Shown here in pieces: positions 1 to 27,865 of a stretch of 64,000 bases of DNA. Made by a program: the position numbers and the translations under genes. The stretch is from a virus, in the IMG/VR virus record IMGVR_UViG_3300032242_003075, positions 1 to 64,000 of that record, one strand, 5' to 3'. Below the pieces are notes generated by a model. It made no database searches. It was given only the letters and a program-made list of their open reading frames with translations, and was not told the origin of the DNA. Within the stretch, counting starts at the first letter, position 1, and each line of letters begins with the position of its first letter.

Positions 1-151
1 GTACTTGTCGTTGTCGGAGCTAATGTCGTAGTCGTCGTTGTTGCTCTAGTAGTTGTACTTGTCGTTGTCGGAGCTAATGTCGTAGTCGTCGTTGTTGCTC
101 TAGTAGTTGTACTTGTCGTTGTCGGAGCTAATGTCGTAGTCGTCGTTGTTG
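1..151. repeat. 54-bp tandem repeat, about 2.8 copies
   Basis: The sequence beginning gtacttgtcgttgtcggagc repeats with an exact 54-bp period at 1, 55 and 109 and diverges near 151. It is coding: each unit gives 18 residues (Thr runs broken by Arg-Ala and Leu-Ala-Pro) of the minus-strand Thr-rich protein. The array may continue past the left edge. Confidence 0.9.
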
Positions 152-2174
152 TCGGAACCGCAGTTGTCGTAGTCGTAGTGCCTATGTATCCTGAACAATC
201 AATTGAAGTAATTGTTTGAGCTGAATGACTAAATCTAAAACAGAATTCGCATGATCCAAGTATCACCTTAACATCTCCGTCTGCAATCGTTCTAGTGACA
301 GCGATTGGGATGACTCCTCCTGCAATAGGAACTCCGAACTGTTGTATTGAGTAATAAACACCACTAGGGCCATTTATTACGAAAGTTACAGCATCTTCTG
401 CAATCCTAGTGGCGGTTACCGTGAATTGTTGGCAGTATAGAGTGGTTGTAGTCGTAGGCATTACTGTGGTAGTCGTCGTTAAACCATGAGTCGTAGTGCT
501 AGTAGTAGTCGGGCTAGAAGTTGTTGTCGATGTAGTTGGGCCAAGAGTCGTAGTGCTTGTCGTGGTGGTTGTGCTAGCGATGTATCCTGAACAATCAATA
601 GGAGTAACGGTTTGATATGCATGACTGAATCTAAAACAGAACTCGCATGAACTTATTATAACTTTAACGTCTCCACCTGCTATTGTTCTGGTGACTGCTG
701 CTGGAATTACTCCACCTGCTATAGGAACTCCAAATTGCTGTATTGAATAATAAACACCGCTAGGACCATTTACCGTAAAGGTTATAACGTCTTGAGCTAT
801 TCTAGTTGCGGTAACTGAAAATTGTTGACAGTATAAAGTTGTGGTCGTTGTAGTCGGCGTAATTGTCGTCGTTGTGGTAGTCGTTGGACTAGAAGTTGTA
901 GTTGTAGTTGTTGTCGGACTATGAGTGGTTGTTGTCGTAGTAGGTACCGCAACGTAAGGAATCAAGAAAAATGGACTAAATGTTGAGACTCTAGCGTATA
1001 CTGTTCTAGTCGAATAATTTGGAGAATAAGGACCTGTTAAAATGGTCTGATCGACGTACACTCCACCAATTTCATGAAATATTCTAATTGCACTAAATTC
1101 GCTTGGACTTATTGAATTCGGAAGAGTGAATTTAACTCGTGCATTACCAGTTATTAAAGTTGATATATCGTAAGCTTCTAACGAATTCGTTAAAAGGTAG
1201 CCTTCCGGTAAACTGCCTGAGGGCGGATTCACGGTTGGAATTGGTACTGCACAGACGGTCACCGGCGAACTTGGAGTAACCGATGAATCGAATATTACCT
1301 GAATTCCAAAATTGTTGAAGGTTGCTGTAGTATCTCCAGCCTGAATTATTGAGGTTGAACAATAGATTCCAGCAGCTCCACAGTAAGGATCAGCGGTCTC
1401 GTACATTAACGTAACCGTATCACCCGAATCTAGATCATATCCGGCAATCGTTGGGTTCCAAAAAAGTTCGTCTAAAACGTCAACGTAACCGTAGTTAGTC
1501 GAAGTCGATCCAGAGTCTTTGCTAAAGTAGGCAGCCTCACTAACGTTTCCGTCCCCAACCAAAACTTCAAGGCCGTTAACGAATAGTAGAAATGGGCTCG
1601 TTGAAACTGGCGCAGGCATTGGATTTATTCCAAGTGAAATTAGGCCTGATGAACCTGAAACTGCATTTGACACCACTGATCTGGTGATCCACTGGGTGCA
1701 AATTCCAAAACCTCCACCGCTAAGTAATGTCCAGCCTGTCGTAGTTAGGTATCCGTAAAATCCTTCAATTCTGCCGCTTTGTGCTGTAATGTAAACGATT
1801 TCACCAGGAATACCGGTGGAAGGCAGAACACCGAAAACGTTTAGTCTTAATCGTTTGCCCTCAAGAACATCATCAACGATTGTGTTTTTCGCCGTTATTG
1901 TACCAGTAGGATACAATTTAATTACTTCTGGATAGGTTCCACCGGGCAATTGAGCTCCATACACGGTAACTCCATTTCTAGCAATGACTGTGTCTGCTGA
2001 TATTGCCTGAATGTCAACGCTTAATTGTGAACCCTGAGTGTAATTTATTGAGGTTAAAAAATCAGTTAATGCAGATTTTAGGGTGGTAAAATTAAAATTA
2101 GAGAGCTCAACGACATTGGTCAGGTTAGTCCCATTTATCGATTTTATCCCAGAAATACTTATTTGAACTGACAT
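1..2174 (-). CDS. Thr-rich repeat virion/adhesin-like protein (3' end outside window)
   Basis: The minus-strand frame opens at ATG 2174 (MSVQISISGIKS...) and stays open to the left window edge, giving 724 visible codons, so the C-terminus is missing. Residues 1-400 look like a beta-rich phage structural domain of no recognised family. From about residue 408 the chain alternates Thr/Pro/Ser-rich linkers with two copies of a Cys-containing module (about 447-531 and 579-664), each starting LYCQQF and ending DCSGYI. The visible end is an 18-residue tandem repeat of Thr with Arg-Ala and Leu-Ala-Pro. Repeated Cys modules on Thr-rich stalks suggest an exposed tail or capsid decoration or adhesin, but this is inference. 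A late-promoter-like box lies 22 nt upstream. Neighbouring minus-strand genes also look like virion genes. Confidence 0.75.
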   Translation of the reverse strand, partial: MSVQISISGIKSINGTNLTNVVELSNFNFTTLKSALTDFLTSINYTQGSQLSVDIQAISADTVIARNGVTVYGAQLPGGTYPEVIKLYPTGTITAKNTIVDDVLEGKRLRLNVFGVLPSTGIPGEIVYITAQSGRIEGFYGYLTTTGWTLLSGGGFGICTQWITRSVVSNAVSGSSGLISLGINPMPAPVSTSPFLLFVNGLEVLVGDGNVSEAAYFSKDSGSTSTNYGYVDVLDELFWNPTIAGYDLDSGDTVTLMYETADPYCGAAGIYCSTSIIQAGDTTATFNNFGIQVIFDSSVTPSSPVTVCAVPIPTVNPPSGSLPEGYLLTNSLEAYDISTLITGNARVKFTLPNSISPSEFSAIRIFHEIGGVYVDQTILTGPYSPNYSTRTVYARVSTFSPFFLIPYVAVPTTTTTTHSPTTTTTTTSSPTTTTTTTITPTTTTTTLYCQQFSVTATRIAQDVITFTVNGPSGVYYSIQQFGVPIAGGVIPAAVTRTIAGGDVKVIISSCEFCFRFSHAYQTVTPIDCSGYIASTTTTTSTTTLGPTTSTTTSSPTTTSTTTHGLTTTTTVMPTTTTTLYCQQFTVTATRIAEDAVTFVINGPSGVYYSIQQFGVPIAGGVIPIAVTRTIADGDVKVILGSCEFCFRFSHSAQTITSIDCSGYIGTTTTTTAVPTTTTTTTLAPTTTSTTTRATTTTTTLAPTTTSTTTRATTTTTTLAPTTTS

Positions 2175-2211: not shown

Positions 2212-3564
2212 TTACTTTGAGACCGATTTACTTCCCTTAGTACCAGCAGGTAAAATCTCGGTCTTTTTATCGACCTTTGAGCCTAGAGCAATCACGCCTG
2301 ATCTAACGATGCACTCATTCAGGTTAGCATATATCACGCACTCCGGTGAGCTCTTAATGTAGCTCATGTCAATTCGATTATCCCCACCCTTATCGAATCG
2401 ACATTCGTCTAGCTGGCAGTATCGAATATCATTATTGGTCATGATTCTACATTCGGTGATATGTGATGATCTTACTTTACAGCTGTAAAGTGAGCAGTTT
2501 ACAATCTCGGATTCAAGGGTGCAGTTAATGAAGTCTAGATCATGAAGCCCAAATCCTTCCTTTATTGTCGAATCCTTTACTTGAACTCTTTTTGTTTGAG
2601 AATCGTAATTAACTTGGCCCTTTTTCATTTTACCGAAGGTTATTAAATCAAATAATGACTCTCTTATGTTTAGGTAATTTGAGGTAAGAACCCTAGGGTC
2701 ATCAACTAGATCAACGTAAAGGTTAATGTCCGGAAATGATTTTTTAAAGTTCTCGTAGGTCTTGATCGATAGAGTAGTTTCACGCTGAGTTTGCATGATT
2801 CCCTGAACCTTTTTTCTTTCATCAATCGAATACGAATAATTGTCCAATAAAGTTACATACAGGGTCTCAGCAACGTAATTTATTAGGTTAGTTGCGCTTG
2901 CTCTGTGATTCTGATAATCAGGTCCACCGGCGTATCTAACTTCCAAGTAACCTTGTGACAGCTTATCAAAATTTAGACCAAAGTACTTTGAATGAGGATA
3001 TTGATAGTCTAACGGACTGCCTGGGCTTGAGTAATTGATTGAAGTCTCAGATAAAAACTTATTCTTTGGATAGATGTCAAGCACCGAATTCTTATAGATT
3101 TTTTGAACCCTTGATTTAGCAGACGGCCACATCTCGAATATTCTTTCCTCGTTAAGACCGAGAATGTACTTAAACACGTTTAGATGTTGAAGTCTGTCCT
3201 TTAGGCCAAGATCAAACTCGTTTAACGAAATGTTGATGTGAAATCCTGTTCGATCAGTGGTGAATCCGTTTTCATCGATGAAGTTCATCACCTTGTACAT
3301 TACATGGATTGCTTCATCGTATGACATTACTCCAGTAATGAGCTCGTTCATCTTAAATCCACCCGAAAAATCAGGTTCTAATTTGAACTCATTCGCTGAG
3401 ACCTGGATGTCTGAATGATAATCATCTGTCCAGATGACTTTTTTATTTAGAGAAGATTCTAACATTCGTGCAAGTTCTTCCCTTTTTATCGGAGAAAAGA
3501 ATTCAAATTCGAATCCCAGCTTTACGTTGTCGAATAGTTTCTTTTGATTTAGGTCTTTATACAT
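2212..3564 (-). CDS. Amidoligase-like protein with C-terminal pentapeptide-like beta-helix
   Basis: 450 residues. The N-terminal two thirds carries hallmarks of the Amidoligase_2 group of glutamine-synthetase/GCS-fold carboxylate-amine ligases: GFEFEF at 17-22 (paired acidic metal ligands), EPDFSGG near 63-69 followed by MNELITG, TGFHINIS at 106-113 (the G-x-H-x-x motif) and a YLEVRYAGG segment near 206. From about residue 345 the chain changes to Cys/Asn-rich five-residue-like repeats (FINCTLE, IVNCSLY, ITECRIM, YCQLDECRF), which suggests a right-handed beta-helix. Amidoligases of this fold form peptide or isopeptide bonds in peptidoglycan and peptide-modifying systems; the substrate here is unknown. 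It sits among virion genes and has its own late-promoter-like box, so it may be virion-associated or act on the cell wall or phage proteins. Assignment rests on motif recognition only. Confidence 0.6.
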   Translation of the reverse strand: MYKDLNQKKLFDNVKLGFEFEFFSPIKREELARMLESSLNKKVIWTDDYHSDIQVSANEFKLEPDFSGGFKMNELITGVMSYDEAIHVMYKVMNFIDENGFTTDRTGFHINISLNEFDLGLKDRLQHLNVFKYILGLNEERIFEMWPSAKSRVQKIYKNSVLDIYPKNKFLSETSINYSSPGSPLDYQYPHSKYFGLNFDKLSQGYLEVRYAGGPDYQNHRASATNLINYVAETLYVTLLDNYSYSIDERKKVQGIMQTQRETTLSIKTYENFKKSFPDINLYVDLVDDPRVLTSNYLNIRESLFDLITFGKMKKGQVNYDSQTKRVQVKDSTIKEGFGLHDLDFINCTLESEIVNCSLYSCKVRSSHITECRIMTNNDIRYCQLDECRFDKGGDNRIDMSYIKSSPECVIYANLNECIVRSGVIALGSKVDKKTEILPAGTKGSKSVSK

Positions 3565-3571
3565 TTAGTAG

Positions 3572-5638
3572 TTATCTATTTATTGCAATGAATGGAACGT
3601 TAAGCCTTGGTCTAGCATTATCAATTATGTCAAGCAGAGATTCGTCCCTAACGAACAATTGGCTTATTATAAATTCGTGATCTTCGTCCTGAACCATCGT
3701 GTTAAACAGCCTCACGTTTGTGATTAGGTAATTGGCACTAGGTAAGCTCCAATTTTGGGTTGTTACGAATGAGAATGTGCCTATGTTTAACGAATTTGTG
3801 TATTCTCGATTGACTCCGTTTAAGTTCTTAACGTTCGATGGATCTTGATTAAACGAATATAGGTTAACCTCAACTTGACCGTATTGGGAAGAAACTGGAA
3901 CGATTAGAGCGTACCATGAACCTGCATTAATTTCTCCAACTGAAAATGAATGTGATGTTCCATTTATGTTAACGTAGACCACCATGGTTAGCGTGCCTGA
4001 GTTGTCAGAGAGTGCGCAGGAAATGACCAAACCCTTATCTAATAGGTTATCATATCCGTCGAATATTTTAATGGTCTGTGATCCCCTATTAAAATTTACA
4101 AGGGCTGAAAATGTCATGTTAGGAGTTCTATCAGTCGATGCGACTGATTTATAAATGACCGCATGCTCGGATTGTTTAAATTGTAGAACGCCTGATGAGT
4201 ATTCACTAAGAGATCTTCTATTTGACGAGGACAGAGATAACGTTCGATAACCTTCAACCGCCACGAACTTACCAAGAGAGGTGTGAGATTCCTTGGGGCC
4301 GTTCATTTTAACCGGAGTTAATCCAGTCAACGAGTCAACCGATGAATCGCCTGTGTTTAACTGTCTATTTAACCAGGCTTGGTATATTGAGCTGTTTTCA
4401 TAAGCAATGATCTCAAATGGTTCAACTGAGGTTAGACTCTGATCCTTACTATCACCATTTGAAACGATTGCGTAATTAGCAATGACCGGTTTGATTGAGC
4501 TCATATCGTAGTAGTACTCAATTAAAGGAGCATAATGATAGGTTAAGTCCTGGATCTTGTTAGTTAGGTCAGCGTGCAAGCTTTGTCGAGTTTCATCGAA
4601 CTTGGTTGAAATGGTGCTGAACTGTTGCTTATTCAGAGCGTCCTTCTTTTGAACCTCGGCAGGTTTACCAAAAAGCTCATCGCTTGTCATGATGATGTTG
4701 TCCAAGAACTTACGGTCATCCGCATTGGTCAACATGTCAATGTTAGGATGAAATTTGGTCAATTGAATCTTCCAGTAAAGAGGTTCCATCATGAATCCCC
4801 TAAACAGGTAGCTTCCCTGAATCTCGTACATTCGGTTAGTTAACGGAAAGTAGAGATAATCTCTCTTTCGAGGCTGTGAATCCGGCCCAAATATTGATTG
4901 AAAATATATGTGATCTACGTGTATTTCAAATGGAATCTCAAAATCGACTCCGAATTCGGTGAAGTTTGGTTTATTGTCCGGAAATACGTTATTCGGAACG
5001 ACAACCTTAACGCACTTACGTGAAGCCGTTTTATAGAGAGTCCATTCCTTAAAGATAAAATCACCGCTTGCTCTATCCGGCTCAGTTTTAAAGTAAATCA
5101 CCTCAAGCCCGAATATTTTGTTGGTTTGATAGCTCAATTCTCGATTAATTCCTATTGCTGAGCTAACGTCATACGGCTTAAACGATGACTCCCTTTCTCC
5201 TATTATGGCCGGGCATCTCTCGGTTGAACAGTAAACGGAAGGCGTGTACAGGGACTCTGAGAGTTTTGTGCTGCTTACCTTAAACTTAACTGAATTAACC
5301 GTTAGCTGGATGGCTAACTTATCGTATGTGGAATCGTCGTATTCGTATTTTACCTCAATGAATACTTCAGATTCTCCGAATTCCAGACCGGTTATGCTGG
5401 ATAGATCAGCTGGGCTGAAATTGTACCAAAGGGACCAATTTCCCCTATCTGTTGAGTACCTGAACTTTCTAATTAACCTAGTTAGGTCAGCTGACCCCAA
5501 CGTAAGATCCTCATCAAATCCCATGATTTGAACCGCTCCAAGTATCGGATCACCGGTTGAAAAAATTCTGTAATTCTTACTGTAAGTAATATGATTCTTA
5601 TCTAGGTCAGGGATGATCTTGTACGTAACTACCTGCAT
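3572..5638 (-). CDS. Virion structural protein with LamG-like C-terminal domain
   Basis: 688 residues, no signal peptide. The N-terminal 300 residues are beta-rich with repeated aromatic residues (FRYSTDRGNWSLWYNF near 60-75) of no assigned family. A helical, charged stretch lies near 330-370. Residues about 470-680 look like a concanavalin/LamG-type beta-sandwich, with segments such as MTFSALVNFNRGSQTIKIFDGYD and a closing ITNVRLFNTMVQDEDH, as seen in phage proteins that bind glycans or contact the host. The gene ends just upstream of the amidoligase-like gene (8 nt) and has a late-promoter-like box 16 nt upstream. A tail or baseplate-associated role is inferred from context. Confidence 0.6.
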   Translation of the reverse strand: MQVVTYKIIPDLDKNHITYSKNYRIFSTGDPILGAVQIMGFDEDLTLGSADLTRLIRKFRYSTDRGNWSLWYNFSPADLSSITGLEFGESEVFIEVKYEYDDSTYDKLAIQLTVNSVKFKVSSTKLSESLYTPSVYCSTERCPAIIGERESSFKPYDVSSAIGINRELSYQTNKIFGLEVIYFKTEPDRASGDFIFKEWTLYKTASRKCVKVVVPNNVFPDNKPNFTEFGVDFEIPFEIHVDHIYFQSIFGPDSQPRKRDYLYFPLTNRMYEIQGSYLFRGFMMEPLYWKIQLTKFHPNIDMLTNADDRKFLDNIIMTSDELFGKPAEVQKKDALNKQQFSTISTKFDETRQSLHADLTNKIQDLTYHYAPLIEYYYDMSSIKPVIANYAIVSNGDSKDQSLTSVEPFEIIAYENSSIYQAWLNRQLNTGDSSVDSLTGLTPVKMNGPKESHTSLGKFVAVEGYRTLSLSSSNRRSLSEYSSGVLQFKQSEHAVIYKSVASTDRTPNMTFSALVNFNRGSQTIKIFDGYDNLLDKGLVISCALSDNSGTLTMVVYVNINGTSHSFSVGEINAGSWYALIVPVSSQYGQVEVNLYSFNQDPSNVKNLNGVNREYTNSLNIGTFSFVTTQNWSLPSANYLITNVRLFNTMVQDEDHEFIISQLFVRDESLLDIIDNARPRLNVPFIAINR
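3577..3584 (-). promoter_or_regulatory. Late-promoter-like box AATAAATA
   Basis: The minus strand reads GCAATAAATAGATAAC, 13 nt before the ATG at 3564. It is a one-base-shifted variant of the recurrent box. Confidence 0.45.
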
Positions 5639-5715: not shown

Positions 5716-6507
5716 ATGAAACCTCTTAACCTTAAGCTGGTTCTCGATCCAATGTGGATTTGCTCAGCAAGTCATTTCGACCTAGAGTACTACACCTACG
5801 TTCTACTGGGTGCAAAGCAGACCTATTTAGCTAACTTAGAATCTGGCTTTATAAATTTCTATGAGATCGTATTTCACTACCTAAATCTAAACACAATAAT
5901 TGCGGATAAGAAGGTATACGACTCTCAGCTTAATGCTGTAAATTCTCACTTTAGAATAATGGAGCTCGTTAGTCAACTTACAAATAAGGAAGCTAATGAC
6001 GGTAAGGAAATTGTCAAGATAGCATCATCCGTTTTTGGGGATGTGATGCTTACTTACCTTAAGAAACAAATCCCAGCATTGGAAAATCTTCACTTTCACT
6101 TCAATAATTCACAAATTCATAAACAGGATAAGGTATACATCGTTTGTAAATCGGCTAAGTTGGACCGGTATGAGGTGTACTTGCTCAACTTTAAAAGCAA
6201 GAAAAACTTGGGATATTCAATAACCCGAAAGGTTGTGTTGGACTTACCTGATCTTAAGCAAAACGAATTTAAGAAAAGACTACTTGAACGTAGACCCCTT
6301 CTTACTGACTTTAACTCGGATCTTAATGTGATCGTTGTTTCAGGAATGGACCAGGTCGTTTTAGAAAACGGAGTTTGTCTTACAAAGGACATAATTCTTC
6401 TCAATAAACTAATGAATCTAGCTCATGGCTTTGATGCTAACGTGATGTTGGATTACGAAAGAATGCTTGAAAAGAAAAAGAAGATTCCGTTTAAGCTTAA
6501 GGTTTAA
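5716..6507 (+). CDS. Conserved-looking protein of unknown function
   Basis: 263 residues starting MKPLNLKLVLDP after an A-rich leader. It is the only plus-strand gene inside the 1-24 kb minus-strand virion region. The sequence is a mixed alpha/beta soluble protein with no signal peptide or clear membrane segment. An extended region near 133-180 is rich in Lys/Tyr (KQDKVYIVCKSAKLDRYEVY) and the C-terminus is strongly basic (EKKKKIPFKLKV). No catalytic motif was recognised. Its stop codon overlaps that of the convergent collagen-like fibre gene (TTAA at 6504-6507). An ATAAATAA box upstream suggests late expression. It might be a tail assembly or baseplate protein, but nothing in the sequence proves that. 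Confidence 0.7.
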   Translation: MKPLNLKLVLDPMWICSASHFDLEYYTYVLLGAKQTYLANLESGFINFYEIVFHYLNLNTIIADKKVYDSQLNAVNSHFRIMELVSQLTNKEANDGKEIVKIASSVFGDVMLTYLKKQIPALENLHFHFNNSQIHKQDKVYIVCKSAKLDRYEVYLLNFKSKKNLGYSITRKVVLDLPDLKQNEFKKRLLERRPLLTDFNSDLNVIVVSGMDQVVLENGVCLTKDIILLNKLMNLAHGFDANVMLDYERMLEKKKKIPFKLKV

Positions 6508-8939
6508 GTAGCTGCTGTGTAGCTGCCGCTGACCCAAATTTCAACCGATTCTGAGTATTTAGAAGCCCCTGAATCATAAGGCTTTCTAGCGTTCCTATCA
6601 AATAATATGTACTGATTTAGCCTAGTTGTTGGAGCAGTAGTTGTGTCAGTCGGTAACACAGTTGGACTATACAAGTAAATAATTGATGTTGTATCTCCCT
6701 GAACTGCCTTGGTCATACCGACAAAATTAGTATAGCAAGTTTCGCCATACGGAATGCTTGCAACGCTAATGTACGGATCAGGTAAGGTGGTTAAATCTAG
6801 AACTGACACGCTAGAATGAAAATCTCCTGAAACTGCATAGGGCAGGTAAATTCCAAGTCCGGTGTACTGATGTGAGGTCCCTCCTGATGGAGTGTAATTA
6901 TCTGGCCAGTAATTTAAGTTAACTTGCATTCGAGCGGTAAAATTGACAAGCCTTCCAATCTTGGTGTATCGGTATGAGCTATAGTTGATGAACCCTAAAA
7001 AGGTACTGCAATCGATTGAACCGTTAACTGCGTTAGGTATGCCAAATCCGTCGACGTAAGTATACCCCATATTTATGAAGAATCTACCAGCTCCAGTAGA
7101 ATTAGTCCCTAATGTACCTTCAACGTAATCGTCCAACGTATTAGGATCAGAAGACGAAACTCGTGACGTTGCAAACGGTAAACCTTGAGCAAGTCGATCG
7201 TTTTTAATGACAATCGGTGCATTTGGAACATCTTCTGAAGAATTACCTATTTTAATTAATTTAGTCGCATCAGTTGCTGATATTGTGACGTTATCGGTAG
7301 TTGACGTTATGTTAGCTTGACCGTGAGCGGTCATTGTTAAATTACCGCTACTGTCAGCGGAAGCAGTTGATATGGTTAAATTTCCCGAACCGTCGATGCT
7401 AAGGTTACCTAGCCCGCTACCGTTCTTAAGCTCAATGCCAAGGCCGTCAAACTGCACTGCAGTTAAAGGAGTACCGGTGTTGGTGGAGCTGCCGGCTATT
7501 TTAATTCGGCTAACGTCGGTCGAAAATCCAATTCCAAAGTAGTAATTGTTAGCATCATTTGACGAGACTCCTTTTTTAATGAATATACCGTCAATTGAGA
7601 AACCAGCAGATGAATCGGTAGCTCCAATTATGTTGCTATTAGTTAGTCTCATTTCAATGACCCTAGAGTCATTTTTTGAATTTTCAGACTTGTTTATTTT
7701 CCATAGATGCTCGCTATTTCTTCTTGGTGAGAACGATGTTGCTGATTCGGAACCTACTGATGAAATATCGTACTCAGCTCTTAAAAAATAAGATCCAGGA
7801 TATGGGTTTGACCATCCTAAGTTTTCAATACGGTACTTACGAATCTTTAGATTCTCAAAGCTTGGACTTATTAAGTACTGGGACTGAGTTACAGTTCCTC
7901 CGCCTCCTCCGCTATTAGGATAGGTTGTTGAGATGTTATCGATTGATCCTAATTCCAATTGGTGTCTGTAACCTTTAGCGGTAGAAGCAAATTCTCTAGC
8001 TTCAGTTGCAATACCGTCGAAATAAGAATAAAGAGTTAGGTTTGCGGTGTTAGGAAATATCGTCTCGGAATCAGCTGATACTCTCAATAGGTTCTGTACT
8101 CCGGATCCAAGAGATGTTAAATTTACAGGAGTTGTTGATACTACGTCCGCTGGTGAAGCACATAGCTTGAAGTTATTCACGTCAACTACTAGTGCGTAGT
8201 ATGAAGTGGAGTTAGTTAGTCCGCCGATATTAGTACCTCCATTATTCGAATAGATCACATATTCTCCATTACTTAATCCATGAGTGTTAACGTTAATTGA
8301 ATCGGACCCAGTATTAACTGATAAGTTAGCATCGAAGCTTATCGGTGTCACACCATTCGTTGACATTACGATTGAGCCGCTTCCGTTTATTCTAACTGAG
8401 TACGTATTAGTTAGATTAAAATTGTGCAGCACCGTTTGATAATTATTACCTGTGCCAGGAGTGGAATAGGTTGGATCAGTTGGCTCGATAGAATTCGTTA
8501 AGTCAGTACCTATGGTTATTCTAGGAGTTATTATTCGTGAGCCTGACTTAAGTAGTGAATAGGGCGAAACGTTAACGCCTAACGCGGTTATTACAAGCTG
8601 GTTGAAATCGGTTGCTTTAGTCCAGTTGGTCAAATTCTTTTGCCAGATCGAATCACCGGTTATTAAAACGTCATTGACTCTAATCCCCGATGGAATTGTA
8701 ACGCCAGGAGATGAAGCTACTGTAGTTGAAGAACTATAGATCAATGATCCAGTTTCTCCAGCAGGTCCAGCAGGTCCAATTGGTCCAGCCGCTCCCTGTA
8801 ATCCAGTAGGCCCTATTTGTCCAGGTTGACCAACTCCCAATGCAATTAATTGGTTAAAGTTAAAGTTTATCTTAGACGATAGGTCCAATTGGCTATCGTT
8901 GGAGAAAACTTCCTTTAAATTTATTGTTACTGATGGCAT
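6504..8939 (-). CDS. Collagen-like tail fibre/adhesin protein
   Basis: 811 residues. A short N-terminal segment (NFNFNQLIALG) is followed by nine uninterrupted Gly-X-Y triplets from Gly37 to Gly64 (GQPGQIGPTGLQ...). Such collagen-like triple helices are common in trimeric phage fibres. The rest is Ser/Thr/Gly/Asn-rich and beta-rich, with a repeated SGNLT pattern near 520-550, and it ends SGSYTAAT. Low-complexity beta-rich sequence with a collagen stalk fits a side or tail fibre. The start codon shares one base with the stop of the 1660-residue gene upstream (8939), so the two are translationally coupled in one late operon. The 3' end overlaps a convergent gene by 4 bp. Receptor specificity cannot be read from sequence. 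Confidence 0.75.
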   Translation of the reverse strand: MPSVTINLKEVFSNDSQLDLSSKINFNFNQLIALGVGQPGQIGPTGLQGAAGPIGPAGPAGETGSLIYSSSTTVASSPGVTIPSGIRVNDVLITGDSIWQKNLTNWTKATDFNQLVITALGVNVSPYSLLKSGSRIITPRITIGTDLTNSIEPTDPTYSTPGTGNNYQTVLHNFNLTNTYSVRINGSGSIVMSTNGVTPISFDANLSVNTGSDSINVNTHGLSNGEYVIYSNNGGTNIGGLTNSTSYYALVVDVNNFKLCASPADVVSTTPVNLTSLGSGVQNLLRVSADSETIFPNTANLTLYSYFDGIATEAREFASTAKGYRHQLELGSIDNISTTYPNSGGGGGTVTQSQYLISPSFENLKIRKYRIENLGWSNPYPGSYFLRAEYDISSVGSESATSFSPRRNSEHLWKINKSENSKNDSRVIEMRLTNSNIIGATDSSAGFSIDGIFIKKGVSSNDANNYYFGIGFSTDVSRIKIAGSSTNTGTPLTAVQFDGLGIELKNGSGLGNLSIDGSGNLTISTASADSSGNLTMTAHGQANITSTTDNVTISATDATKLIKIGNSSEDVPNAPIVIKNDRLAQGLPFATSRVSSSDPNTLDDYVEGTLGTNSTGAGRFFINMGYTYVDGFGIPNAVNGSIDCSTFLGFINYSSYRYTKIGRLVNFTARMQVNLNYWPDNYTPSGGTSHQYTGLGIYLPYAVSGDFHSSVSVLDLTTLPDPYISVASIPYGETCYTNFVGMTKAVQGDTTSIIYLYSPTVLPTDTTTAPTTRLNQYILFDRNARKPYDSGASKYSESVEIWVSGSYTAAT

Positions 8940-24227: not shown

Positions 24228-24647
24228 TTACAGAGTATATATTTCACTTTCACCAGATTGGCTTAACGAGATGAATTCGACCTTTTCGCCCTTACCGATG
24301 TGCTTATAGATCTTCTTGTATTCTTTTGCGTACCCATTTTTAGCGATTTGGGTGAAATACGCAAAGGCATTATTTGACTTTTCTTCGTTAAAGTTCCGCC
24401 AATACCTTAAAAGGTCCAATAGAGCTGACTGAATGCAGTCCTCCTTGTCCAATGGATTGCTGAATCTTAACTTTAGTATTGCTCGATTCGCCAGGGTTAT
24501 GAAGTAATTAATGGCCTTTGGAGAAAGTTCGCCGGCTTTATGCTGGTAACCTGTCTCCTCGTCCAGATGTCCGTGCTTACACCTAATTATTTCGTTTGTG
24601 AACTCACGGTTGTTGATGTAGTACTTACTATCTTTTGCTTTTGCCAT
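24228..24647 (-). CDS. 55: Late-transcription sigma factor, T4 gp55-like
   Basis: 139 residues, shorter than T4 gp55 (185). YYINNREFTNEIIRCK at 9-24 parallels the gp55 N-terminal pattern YVNNKEL..AII. Residues 42-113 look like sigma region 2: an acidic/hydrophobic helix (NPLDKEDCIQSALLDLL) then NFNEEKSNNAFAYFTQIAKN at 85-104, matching the N-x-x-x-x-x-NP-x-AYITQ helix of gp55. There is no region 4, as expected for this family, which needs a sliding-clamp co-activator. It would redirect host RNA polymerase to late promoters, which fits the recurrent ATAAATAA boxes before virion genes. It lies 1 nt downstream of the RuvC-like gene, so both are probably expressed early or middle from the divergent region at 25327-25530. 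No gp33-like co-activator was recognised. Confidence 0.75.
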   Translation of the reverse strand: MAKAKDSKYYINNREFTNEIIRCKHGHLDEETGYQHKAGELSPKAINYFITLANRAILKLRFSNPLDKEDCIQSALLDLLRYWRNFNEEKSNNAFAYFTQIAKNGYAKEYKKIYKHIGKGEKVEFISLSQSGESEIYTL

Positions 24648-26296: not shown

Positions 26297-27865
26297 GTGA
26301 AACAAACAAAATTTAAAGCTGAAGCTCGTCAGGAGTTAGCTAAGGGTATTAATGCACTGGCGGATGCAGTAAAAATAACTTTAGGCCCAAGAGGTCGAAA
26401 CGTTATCATTTCTAGGGACAATTCAGTTGCCATAACCAAGGACGGAGTTACTGTTGCTCGTGAGGTTCACCTTGAAAATTTCTTAGAGGACGTTGGTGCT
26501 CAGGTAATAAAACAGGTTGCAAATAAAGTTGCATTGGAAGCAGGGGACGGTACAACAACAGCAACCGTACTAGCTCATGCAATCTTCACTGAGGGTAACC
26601 GTTACGTTGAGACGGGCTCTCATCCGATGGACCTTAAAAAGGGAATCGAAATAGGCATGAAAGCTATCGTTAACCATCTTAAGGGTCAAAGCCAACAAAC
26701 TACAGATCTTAATAAGATTAAACAGGTCGCAACCATATCCGCAAATAACGATGAAGAAATAGGCACAATCATTGCTTCTGCCATGGAATCTGTAGGTTTT
26801 GATGGAATCATCACAGCCGGCGAAAGTAAAACAAGCGAGACCTTCGTTGAGGTGGTTAAGGGAATGCAAATTCAAAGCGGATACGTATCACCGTACTTCA
26901 TTACTGACACGGAAACTAATTCCGTTGAATTTACAAAACCGATCGTTATGTTGTACGATGGTAAGATCAAAAATCTTACGGACATTCTTCAGTTCTTAGA
27001 ATATTCAAATAAACAAAAGCAACCTCTATTAATAATAAGCGATGGTGTTGACGGAGAAGCGCTAAGCACTCTACTTGTTAATAAATTACAGGGAATTCTT
27101 AAAGTTGCCGCGGTTAGAGCTCCAGGCTTTGGAGAAAACCGTAGATCAAGGTTGCTTGACATTGCCACATTAACCGGTGCGACTCTAATTTCAGAAATGG
27201 ACGGAGTCACCATTAAGGAGGTAATCGCTGCAAACTATGTGGGATCATGTGATTCAATCTCAGTTACCAATGATTCAACCACAATAATTGGAGGTCATGG
27301 ATTTCCGGATGAAATCACGGATTTAATAAATGACATTAAGTCTCAAATTGAAGCGACCGATAATGAGTCCAGTAAGATTTTACTAAGGGAACGTCTTTCT
27401 AAATTTGAAGGTGGAGTCGCCATCATTAAAATAGGTGCAAATTCCGAAATTGAAGCTCGTGAAAAGGCCGATAGAATTGACGATGCTCTTGGAGCAACTA
27501 GAGCTGCCGTTGCTGAGGGAATCGTTGAGGGAGGCGGTATTGCCCTAATGAGAGCGGTTAGCGAAATTCAGGTAACTTCTCCAATTAGAGATATTCAGTT
27601 GGGAATTGACCTAATTAAAAAGGCTTGCACCCAACCGTTTAAAACCATTTTAGAAAATGCAGGTATCAATCCGGAGATCGTTTGGACTAAGATCCAAGAT
27701 GGTGCTCCAGGTTTTAACGCTAAGACCGAAGAGTACGTTAATATGATTGAGTCAGGTATAATTGACCCGGTTAAAGTTACCAGAACTGCATTGGAAAACG
27801 CAGTTTCAATCGCAAGTTTACTAATAACGACCGACTGTTTAATGGTTCAAAAACCAAAGGAATAA
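26297..27865 (+). CDS. groEL: GroEL chaperonin (Cpn60)
   Basis: 522 residues with full GroEL architecture: equatorial ATP site with KITLGPRGRNV (26-36) and GDGTTTATVLA (83-93), apical domain with VEVVKGMQIQSGYVSPYF near 187, and C-terminal DDALGATRAAVAEGIVEGGG near 394-413. The C-terminus ends at CLMVQKPKE and lacks the flexible Gly-Gly-Met tail of bacterial GroEL (usual length about 545). The start is GTG at 26297, giving VKQTKFKAEAR, the normal GroEL start context. A GroES homologue is encoded at 39455, so the phage appears to make its own folding chamber, most likely for the capsid protein as T4 gp31 does with host GroEL. A terminator-like hairpin follows at 27908-27935. Confidence 0.95.
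   Translation: MKQTKFKAEARQELAKGINALADAVKITLGPRGRNVIISRDNSVAITKDGVTVAREVHLENFLEDVGAQVIKQVANKVALEAGDGTTTATVLAHAIFTEGNRYVETGSHPMDLKKGIEIGMKAIVNHLKGQSQQTTDLNKIKQVATISANNDEEIGTIIASAMESVGFDGIITAGESKTSETFVEVVKGMQIQSGYVSPYFITDTETNSVEFTKPIVMLYDGKIKNLTDILQFLEYSNKQKQPLLIISDGVDGEALSTLLVNKLQGILKVAAVRAPGFGENRRSRLLDIATLTGATLISEMDGVTIKEVIAANYVGSCDSISVTNDSTTIIGGHGFPDEITDLINDIKSQIEATDNESSKILLRERLSKFEGGVAIIKIGANSEIEAREKADRIDDALGATRAAVAEGIVEGGGIALMRAVSEIQVTSPIRDIQLGIDLIKKACTQPFKTILENAGINPEIVWTKIQDGAPGFNAKTEEYVNMIESGIIDPVKVTRTALENAVSIASLLITTDCLMVQKPKE

Follow-up and report, generated by a model that had tools for sequence, protein, structure and literature searches.

A ligase-like domain joined to a β-helix

The stretch of viral DNA analysed here, termed the window (64,000 nucleotides; positions 1 to 64,000 of IMG/VR record IMGVR_UViG_3300032242_003075), carries on its minus strand, at 2212..3564, an intact open reading frame with an ATG start that encodes 450 amino acids. 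Its coordinates and uninterrupted frame were reproduced exactly. The protein comprises a catalytic domain resembling the glutamine synthetase (GS) and γ-glutamylcysteine synthetase (GCS) carboxylate-amine ligases (Amidoligase_2; residues ~13–324, at 2593..3528, minus strand), supported by Pfam family PF12224 and a domain-only AlphaFold2 model, followed by a pentapeptide-repeat β-helix (residues ~326–425, at 2290..2589, minus strand). Seven base pairs separate the ligase start from the stop codon of its upstream neighbour, a head-closure or neck protein (Hc2, T4 gp13-like; 3572..5638, minus strand; phrog_679, E = 1.9e-6) with homologues in cultured phages, one of which is annotated as a neck protein. 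On the other side, the ligase end is followed after 37 bp by a second same-strand neighbour, the gene for a Thr-rich Cys-module protein (F1; 3..2174, minus strand), which runs off the left edge of the window. A collagen-like tail-fibre protein (6504..8939, minus strand; phrog_38233, E = 2.2e-9) belongs to the same late block, two genes further upstream. The intervening gene, F3 (5716–6507), lies on the plus strand, encodes 263 residues, and is also found near the ligase in other loci of the window's clade (clade 1) and in a divergent locus, L082. Elsewhere, the window encodes a phage GroEL chaperonin (26297–27865, plus strand; phrog_5725, E = 1e-152).

A preliminary description of this DNA, made from its sequence alone, had proposed an amidoligase-like catalytic fold joined to a pentapeptide-like β-helix, and Pfam, AlphaFold2 and Foldseek all bear this out. 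PF12224 (Amidoligase_2) matches residues 13–132 of the window protein with E = 5.2e-6 and 26.9 bits, above the cut-off of 22. By profile search, the same family is found at E < 0.01 in 25 of 75 family members, and in record G001 (270 kb) a homologue covers profile positions 3–225 of 245 with 30.9 bits. Built from 75 homologues, the AlphaFold2 model has a mean pLDDT of 88.6 and a pTM of 0.84, and both modules are visible in it: an α/β ligase domain extends to about residue 324 and is followed by a ladder of short strands. Foldseek searches with the whole model against solved structures returned glutamine synthetases and γ-glutamylcysteine synthetases; with the catalytic domain alone, GS, GCS (a bifunctional enzyme) and Pup ligase were the only matches at E ≤ 1e-3. 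The E-values to GS and GCS run from 1e-5 to 1e-3. Among viral models, the whole protein matched dozens of entries named 'Amidoligase enzyme', at E = 3e-14 and weaker, and also a giant-virus pentapeptide protein. The preliminary description had staked its fold assignment on the GS/GCS active-site barrel, and the predicted structure does match the GS/GCS superfamily; this assignment is based on Foldseek E-values, motifs and Pfam, with TM-scores to solved GS and GCS structures below 0.4. Owing to these low TM-scores, we regard the relation to the solved structures as distant.

The C-terminal part is a true pentapeptide-type β-helix with a strict five-residue period. Averaged over the family, the hydrophobic autocorrelation of this segment peaks at lags of 5, 10, 15, 20, 25 and 30 residues (0.27–0.13), and the same analysis of the N-terminal domain gave no such five-residue peaks. 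The Pentapeptide_4 profile is sub-threshold for the window protein alone (E = 0.036) and reaches E < 0.01 in 47 of the 75 members. Near the end of the helix lies a conserved R421-x-G423, with R421 kept in 74 of 75 sequences. Large solenoid-repeat proteins of the NGxFNGGxF type are encoded in two family records, W02 and W04 (L193:5129-7198 and L194:3375-7349, both minus strand), and the family's β-helix profile matches them weakly.

Conservation of the putative active site

All five motifs sought in the catalytic domain are found: G-x-E-x-E, SGG..E..TG, (G/S)-x-H-x-N-x-S, KYxGxNF and LExRY. The first, G17-F-E19-F-E21 (3502..3516, all motifs on the minus strand), forms the predicted metal-ligand strand. 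It is followed by D65-F-S67-G-G...E74-x-x-T-G78 (3331..3372), G107-F-H109-I-N111-I-S113 (3226..3246) and K193-Y-F-G-L-N198...E208-V-R210-Y211 (2932..2988). Across 75 sequences, including the window protein and homologues 22–74% identical to it, the residues G17, E19, E21, D65, S67, E74, S113, E139, Y157, K193, Y194, G196, N198, E208, R210, Y211 and G213 are unchanged, and H109 is histidine in 69 and glutamine in six. Loss of the acidic and histidine residues in homologues, which the preliminary description had named as the outcome that would count against a ligase, is thus not what the alignment contains. By analogy with the superfamily, E19, E21, E74, H109 and E208 would bind metal and R210 would bind phosphate. 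Since the motif residues do not vary even where identity falls to about 25%, the enzyme is, as judged by its conservation, under selection and not a relic; this is the pattern expected of a working active site. The protein is apparently a catalytically competent enzyme, predicted to be an ATP/Mg-dependent carboxylate-amine ligase.

Distribution of the family

A profile scan of the viral contigs of IMG/VR recovered 578 related stretches. By tblastn, six of 50,697 phage records matched, all of 462–735 kb, and no relative in a cultured phage was found among them. A family member is present in the 735-kb genome LR756501; a genome of this size was the largest then known (PMC7162821). Searches of ~85,000 bacterial and archaeal genomes gave two matches, L185 and L186. 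The first (CAIWBA010000291.1) is a contig of a Bacteroidetes metagenome-assembled genome that carries the gene order of clade 1 at high identity, and probably comes from a phage that was binned together with its possible host. The second is a partial match at a contig end. A cellular origin was therefore set aside: in these data the fusion family is restricted to phages, with no convincing cellular member. The ligase gene was not found in phages PAU and PTm1 or in the metagenomic phage Lak-A2, all of which have a related neck protein, so the ligase is dispensable for tail assembly as such.

In a review of 224 jumbo phages, amidoligases appear only in the title of a reference and pentapeptide repeats are not mentioned (PMC7824862). 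The sole literature match for pentapeptide repeats together with amidoligases concerns, by its title and the start of its abstract, the Lipocone superfamily. Record W04 (LR756502) also encodes a second amidoligase-like protein (L192:4754-5848, minus strand) with the segments FEFEIE, TGLHINIG, NFGFNI and YVEFRYVGG. It has no pentapeptide helix and no PHROG match, and its gene lies about 3.4 kb from a gp25-like gene.

Linkage to tail and neck genes

The preliminary description had placed the gene in a virion gene cluster, and the neck and tail-fibre neighbours agree with this; the linkage extends well beyond the window. The window's clade has, in order, a large structural protein, the collagen-like fibre, the opposite-strand gene, the neck protein Hc2, the ligase and the Thr-rich protein. 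Clade 2 has the ligase within the tail cluster, in the order sheath/wedge-like, gp5-like hub, S1-like, ligase, Ad2 (head-tail adaptor), gp25-like and gp6-like. In the large-genome clades it adjoins either operons of F9, F10, F11, F6 and gp5 or the Ad2/gp25 genes. A tail/neck-cluster gene lies within 10 kb of the ligase at 72 of 83 non-redundant loci, a count that includes F1, F9 and F11, three families that do not themselves bear a tail annotation. When whole records were used and only annotated Ad2, gp25, gp5-like hub and Hc2 genes counted, such a gene lay within 8 kb of the ligase in 8 of 10 distinct genomes, where random placement would give 1.2. The significance of this contrast is overstated, because the neighbour families and the motif described below were picked after the neighbourhoods had been seen. 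Two of 13 genomes, W02 (735 kb) and G003, have no annotated tail or neck gene within 90 kb of the ligase.

Counted on a quick tree of the family, the label for an Hc2 neighbour changes once, that for Ad2/gp25 at least five times and that for F9 at least three times. These changes indicate that the association arose, or was retained, on more than one occasion and with different genes, and since the arrangements differ on the tree, common descent of one gene order is not a sufficient explanation. No protein neighbour is common to all clades, and hence no single substrate is indicated. The Thr-rich Cys-module protein, which the preliminary description had found a tempting partner, does not keep that place: in the neighbourhoods examined F1 is a neighbour of the ligase in the window's clade alone and other clades have other neighbours, so we discarded it as a conserved partner.

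Several further genes recur in these neighbourhoods. In clade 2 an S1-like RNA-binding protein (L091:8785-9954 and its equivalents) is encoded in the baseplate cluster and overlaps the ligase start by 8 bp. A DHH-phosphoesterase-like protein, N4 (L110:11383-12843, minus strand; phrog_4771, E = 7.5e-4), lies beside the ligase or close to it in 35 loci. Directly 3′ of the Thr-rich gene in clade 1 lies the gene for a conserved protein, F16/N26 (L042:13865-14821; phrog_4417, E = 3e-65), which has an HDSDI (DxD-like) stretch; our guess is that it is a glycosyltransferase for the Thr-rich protein. Many unrelated small proteins (at L037, L039, L041 and other loci) share MKYIKxYExFxNE-like N-termini, which are reminiscent of T4 capsid-targeting N-termini.

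A late-promoter-like motif

In the largest clade, the ligase has the AATATATA late-promoter-like motif in common with tail operons. The sequence [A/T]ATATATA occurs 5′ of 46 of 55 ligase genes in this large-genome clade, mostly 12–14 nt before the start codon. For comparison, it occurs in 1.8% of random stretches and before 27% of unassigned open reading frames, and it is rare before many other neighbours. It also precedes F9 (37/37), F6 (26/27) and Ad2 (10/11), and N4 carries it in 26 of 33 cases. It resembles the T4 late promoter TATAAATA. Across the large-genome clades (L038-L184), the T4-late-promoter-like motif TTTAATATATA stands 5′ of F9, F6, Ad2, N4, N17 and the ligase at two preferred distances from the start codon, 12–14 and ~25–33 nt; judged by position, the shorter spacing predicts leaderless or near-leaderless late mRNAs.

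The window encodes a T4 gp55-like late sigma factor (24228..24647, minus strand; phrog_234, E = 1.2e-17), and in it the motif [T/A]ATAAATA is found 9–51 nt 5′ of 11 of 48 open reading frames, versus 0–2 at shifted positions, with examples upstream of 2174, 5716, 20849, 24187, 36406 and 43510. A candidate site for the window's own ligase at 3584–3577 (AATAAATA, 20 nt upstream) was set aside because it overlaps the final codons of the neck gene and is poorly kept: close relatives of this ligase have any such motif in 8 of 18 cases, at shifting positions. For the window's clade, the argument for late expression is therefore one of operon position.

Proposed function and alternatives

Enzymes of the GS/GCS superfamily use ATP to activate a carboxylate, which is then attacked by an amine, and they require Mg-ATP. 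Because ATP is needed, the reaction would take place in the infected cell and not on the free particle, which makes it unlikely that the ligase works extracellularly or on an already completed tail, as the preliminary description had allowed. Late expression together with tail linkage makes a tail or neck protein the most likely class of substrate. We favour, at a probability of roughly 45%, an amidoligase that acts late and in the cytoplasm, is docked by its β-helix and modifies a tail or neck protein while huge contractile-tailed phages are being assembled. The ligase would be produced late in infection together with the tail and neck genes. Inside the cell, ATP would activate a carboxylate, either a Glu or Asp side chain or a C-terminus, to an acyl-phosphate, and this would be joined to the amine of an amino acid, a polyamine or a Lys side chain. 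The β-helix may be a rigid docking module, keeping the enzyme bound to the protein it modifies or to an assembly intermediate. The substrate would be a tail, neck or baseplate protein, modified in the cytoplasm during assembly, and the product either a single-residue modification or a protein–protein isopeptide cross-link. A precedent within the fold is the Pup ligase PafA, one of the structural matches: it is a protein-isopeptide ligase and shows that a GS/GCS-type fold can make protein–protein isopeptide bonds.

A more specific form of this proposal, which we consider doubtful, is a dedicated enzyme of covalent tail maturation that would act like a Pup ligase, docked by its β-helix, and place isopeptide cross-links or amino-acid or polyamine conjugates on tail and neck proteins. 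To our knowledge, neither isopeptide cross-linking nor amino-acid or polyamine conjugation has been described for phage tails. Among the ligase's immediate neighbours, whose C-termini were scanned by eye, no small Pup-like gene was recognised, and we dropped the idea of an adjoining Pup-like tagged protein.

A late enzyme with a host target would also agree with the synteny and the late timing. Such an enzyme could modify the host envelope, at peptidoglycan stem peptides or precursors, for superinfection exclusion or lysis timing; a role in lysis would suit late timing, and envelope modification has been proposed for the classical phage amidoligases. In LUZ24-type phages the genes for an amidoligase, a GATase, a COOH-NH2 ligase, an ATP-grasp protein and GGACT are grouped together (PMC3890496), an arrangement explained as a 'peptidoglycan modification cassette' (PMC5498523, citing Iyer and colleagues); phage amidoligases are discussed as envelope modifiers also in PMC10580990, again citing Iyer and colleagues. 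The defining partners were not found linked to the ligase in the window's family. GATase_6 is found in none of 14 family records (up to 735 kb, some of them fragments), as opposed to all 14 control genomes. COOH-NH2_lig is likewise found in 0 of 14, with LUZ24 matching as the positive control; these single-profile negatives are to be read with their controls, given that the genome search with PF12224 missed the window's own copy. GGACT is present in 4 of the 14, separated from the ligase by 24 kb or more. Moreover, the LUZ24 cassette is surrounded by non-virion genes, with the primase/helicase adjacent, whereas the window's family lies with tail genes. Because these partners were not found, we do not class the family with the peptidoglycan-modification cassette. 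We regard an envelope target as unlikely.

Somewhat less probable still is a target in translation or metabolism, that is, a metabolite or a translation factor of either host or phage, with the S1-like protein of clade 2 as an example and the late, virion-linked setting incidental. The gene adjoining the ligase in clade 2, also found close to it in W01, does encode S1 domains (PF00575, E = 2e-14; rpsA-type, E = 4e-20), the LUZ24 cassette includes a RimK-like enzyme that modifies ribosomal protein S6, and ribosomal protein S1 has been reported in huge phages (PMC7162821). The S1-like neighbour is, however, confined to clade 2 and W01, and in the other clades the tail genes occur without an S1-like gene. 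Least probable is a structural virion protein whose ligase fold would serve scaffolding or binding and whose β-helix would decorate the tail, with catalysis secondary or lost: the gene is linked to tail genes, β-solenoid proteins are common in phage tails and the β-helix profile weakly matches the large solenoid proteins of W02 and W04, but the acidic, Lys and Arg motif residues are invariant at ~25% overall identity, as selection on catalysis predicts.

The family, which comprises several hundred contigs, is a concrete candidate for an enzyme that covalently modifies virion proteins of the largest phages known. The fusion gene is also a marker for a large group of huge phages.

Comparison with known systems

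The sole full-length structural relative in BFVD is A0A6J5PQ40, an 'uncharacterized protein' of an uncultured Caudovirales phage, which matches the window protein with a TM-score of 0.91–0.93 at 35% identity. We saw no difference between the two, and A0A6J5PQ40 appears to belong to the same ligase/β-helix family. GCS and GS share the predicted fold by Foldseek, but at 10–15% identity and a TM-score below 0.4 their substrate specificity is not transferable. Pup ligase PafA (E = 6e-4) and the depupylase Dop (E = 4.5e-3) fall by Foldseek in the same superfamily, though as weak structural matches. The β-helix has its five-residue period and its architecture in common with the pentapeptide-repeat proteins MfpA, McbG-like, Qnr and HalA; in sequence these are only weak matches (E ≥ 0.016), and the module of the window protein is ~100 residues long and fused to an enzyme.

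Another close comparison is with the Amidoligase_2 proteins of LUZ24 (gp18) and phage tf, which share with the window's family a GS/GCS-like domain and a KYxxxN...(L/I)E(V/F)R segment. An hhalign comparison of the family with LUZ24 gp18 pairs only the KY..N..LEFR segment (E = 0.055). LUZ24-type amidoligases sit in cassettes among non-virion genes; the window's family, in contrast, has a C-terminal pentapeptide β-helix and is linked to tail genes. The kind of catalysis is already known, and what is new is the fusion, the phage-restricted family, the absence of the cassette partners and the tail linkage. Phage amidoligases are usually explained as modifiers of the cell wall, and this tail-linked β-helix fusion family points to a different job.
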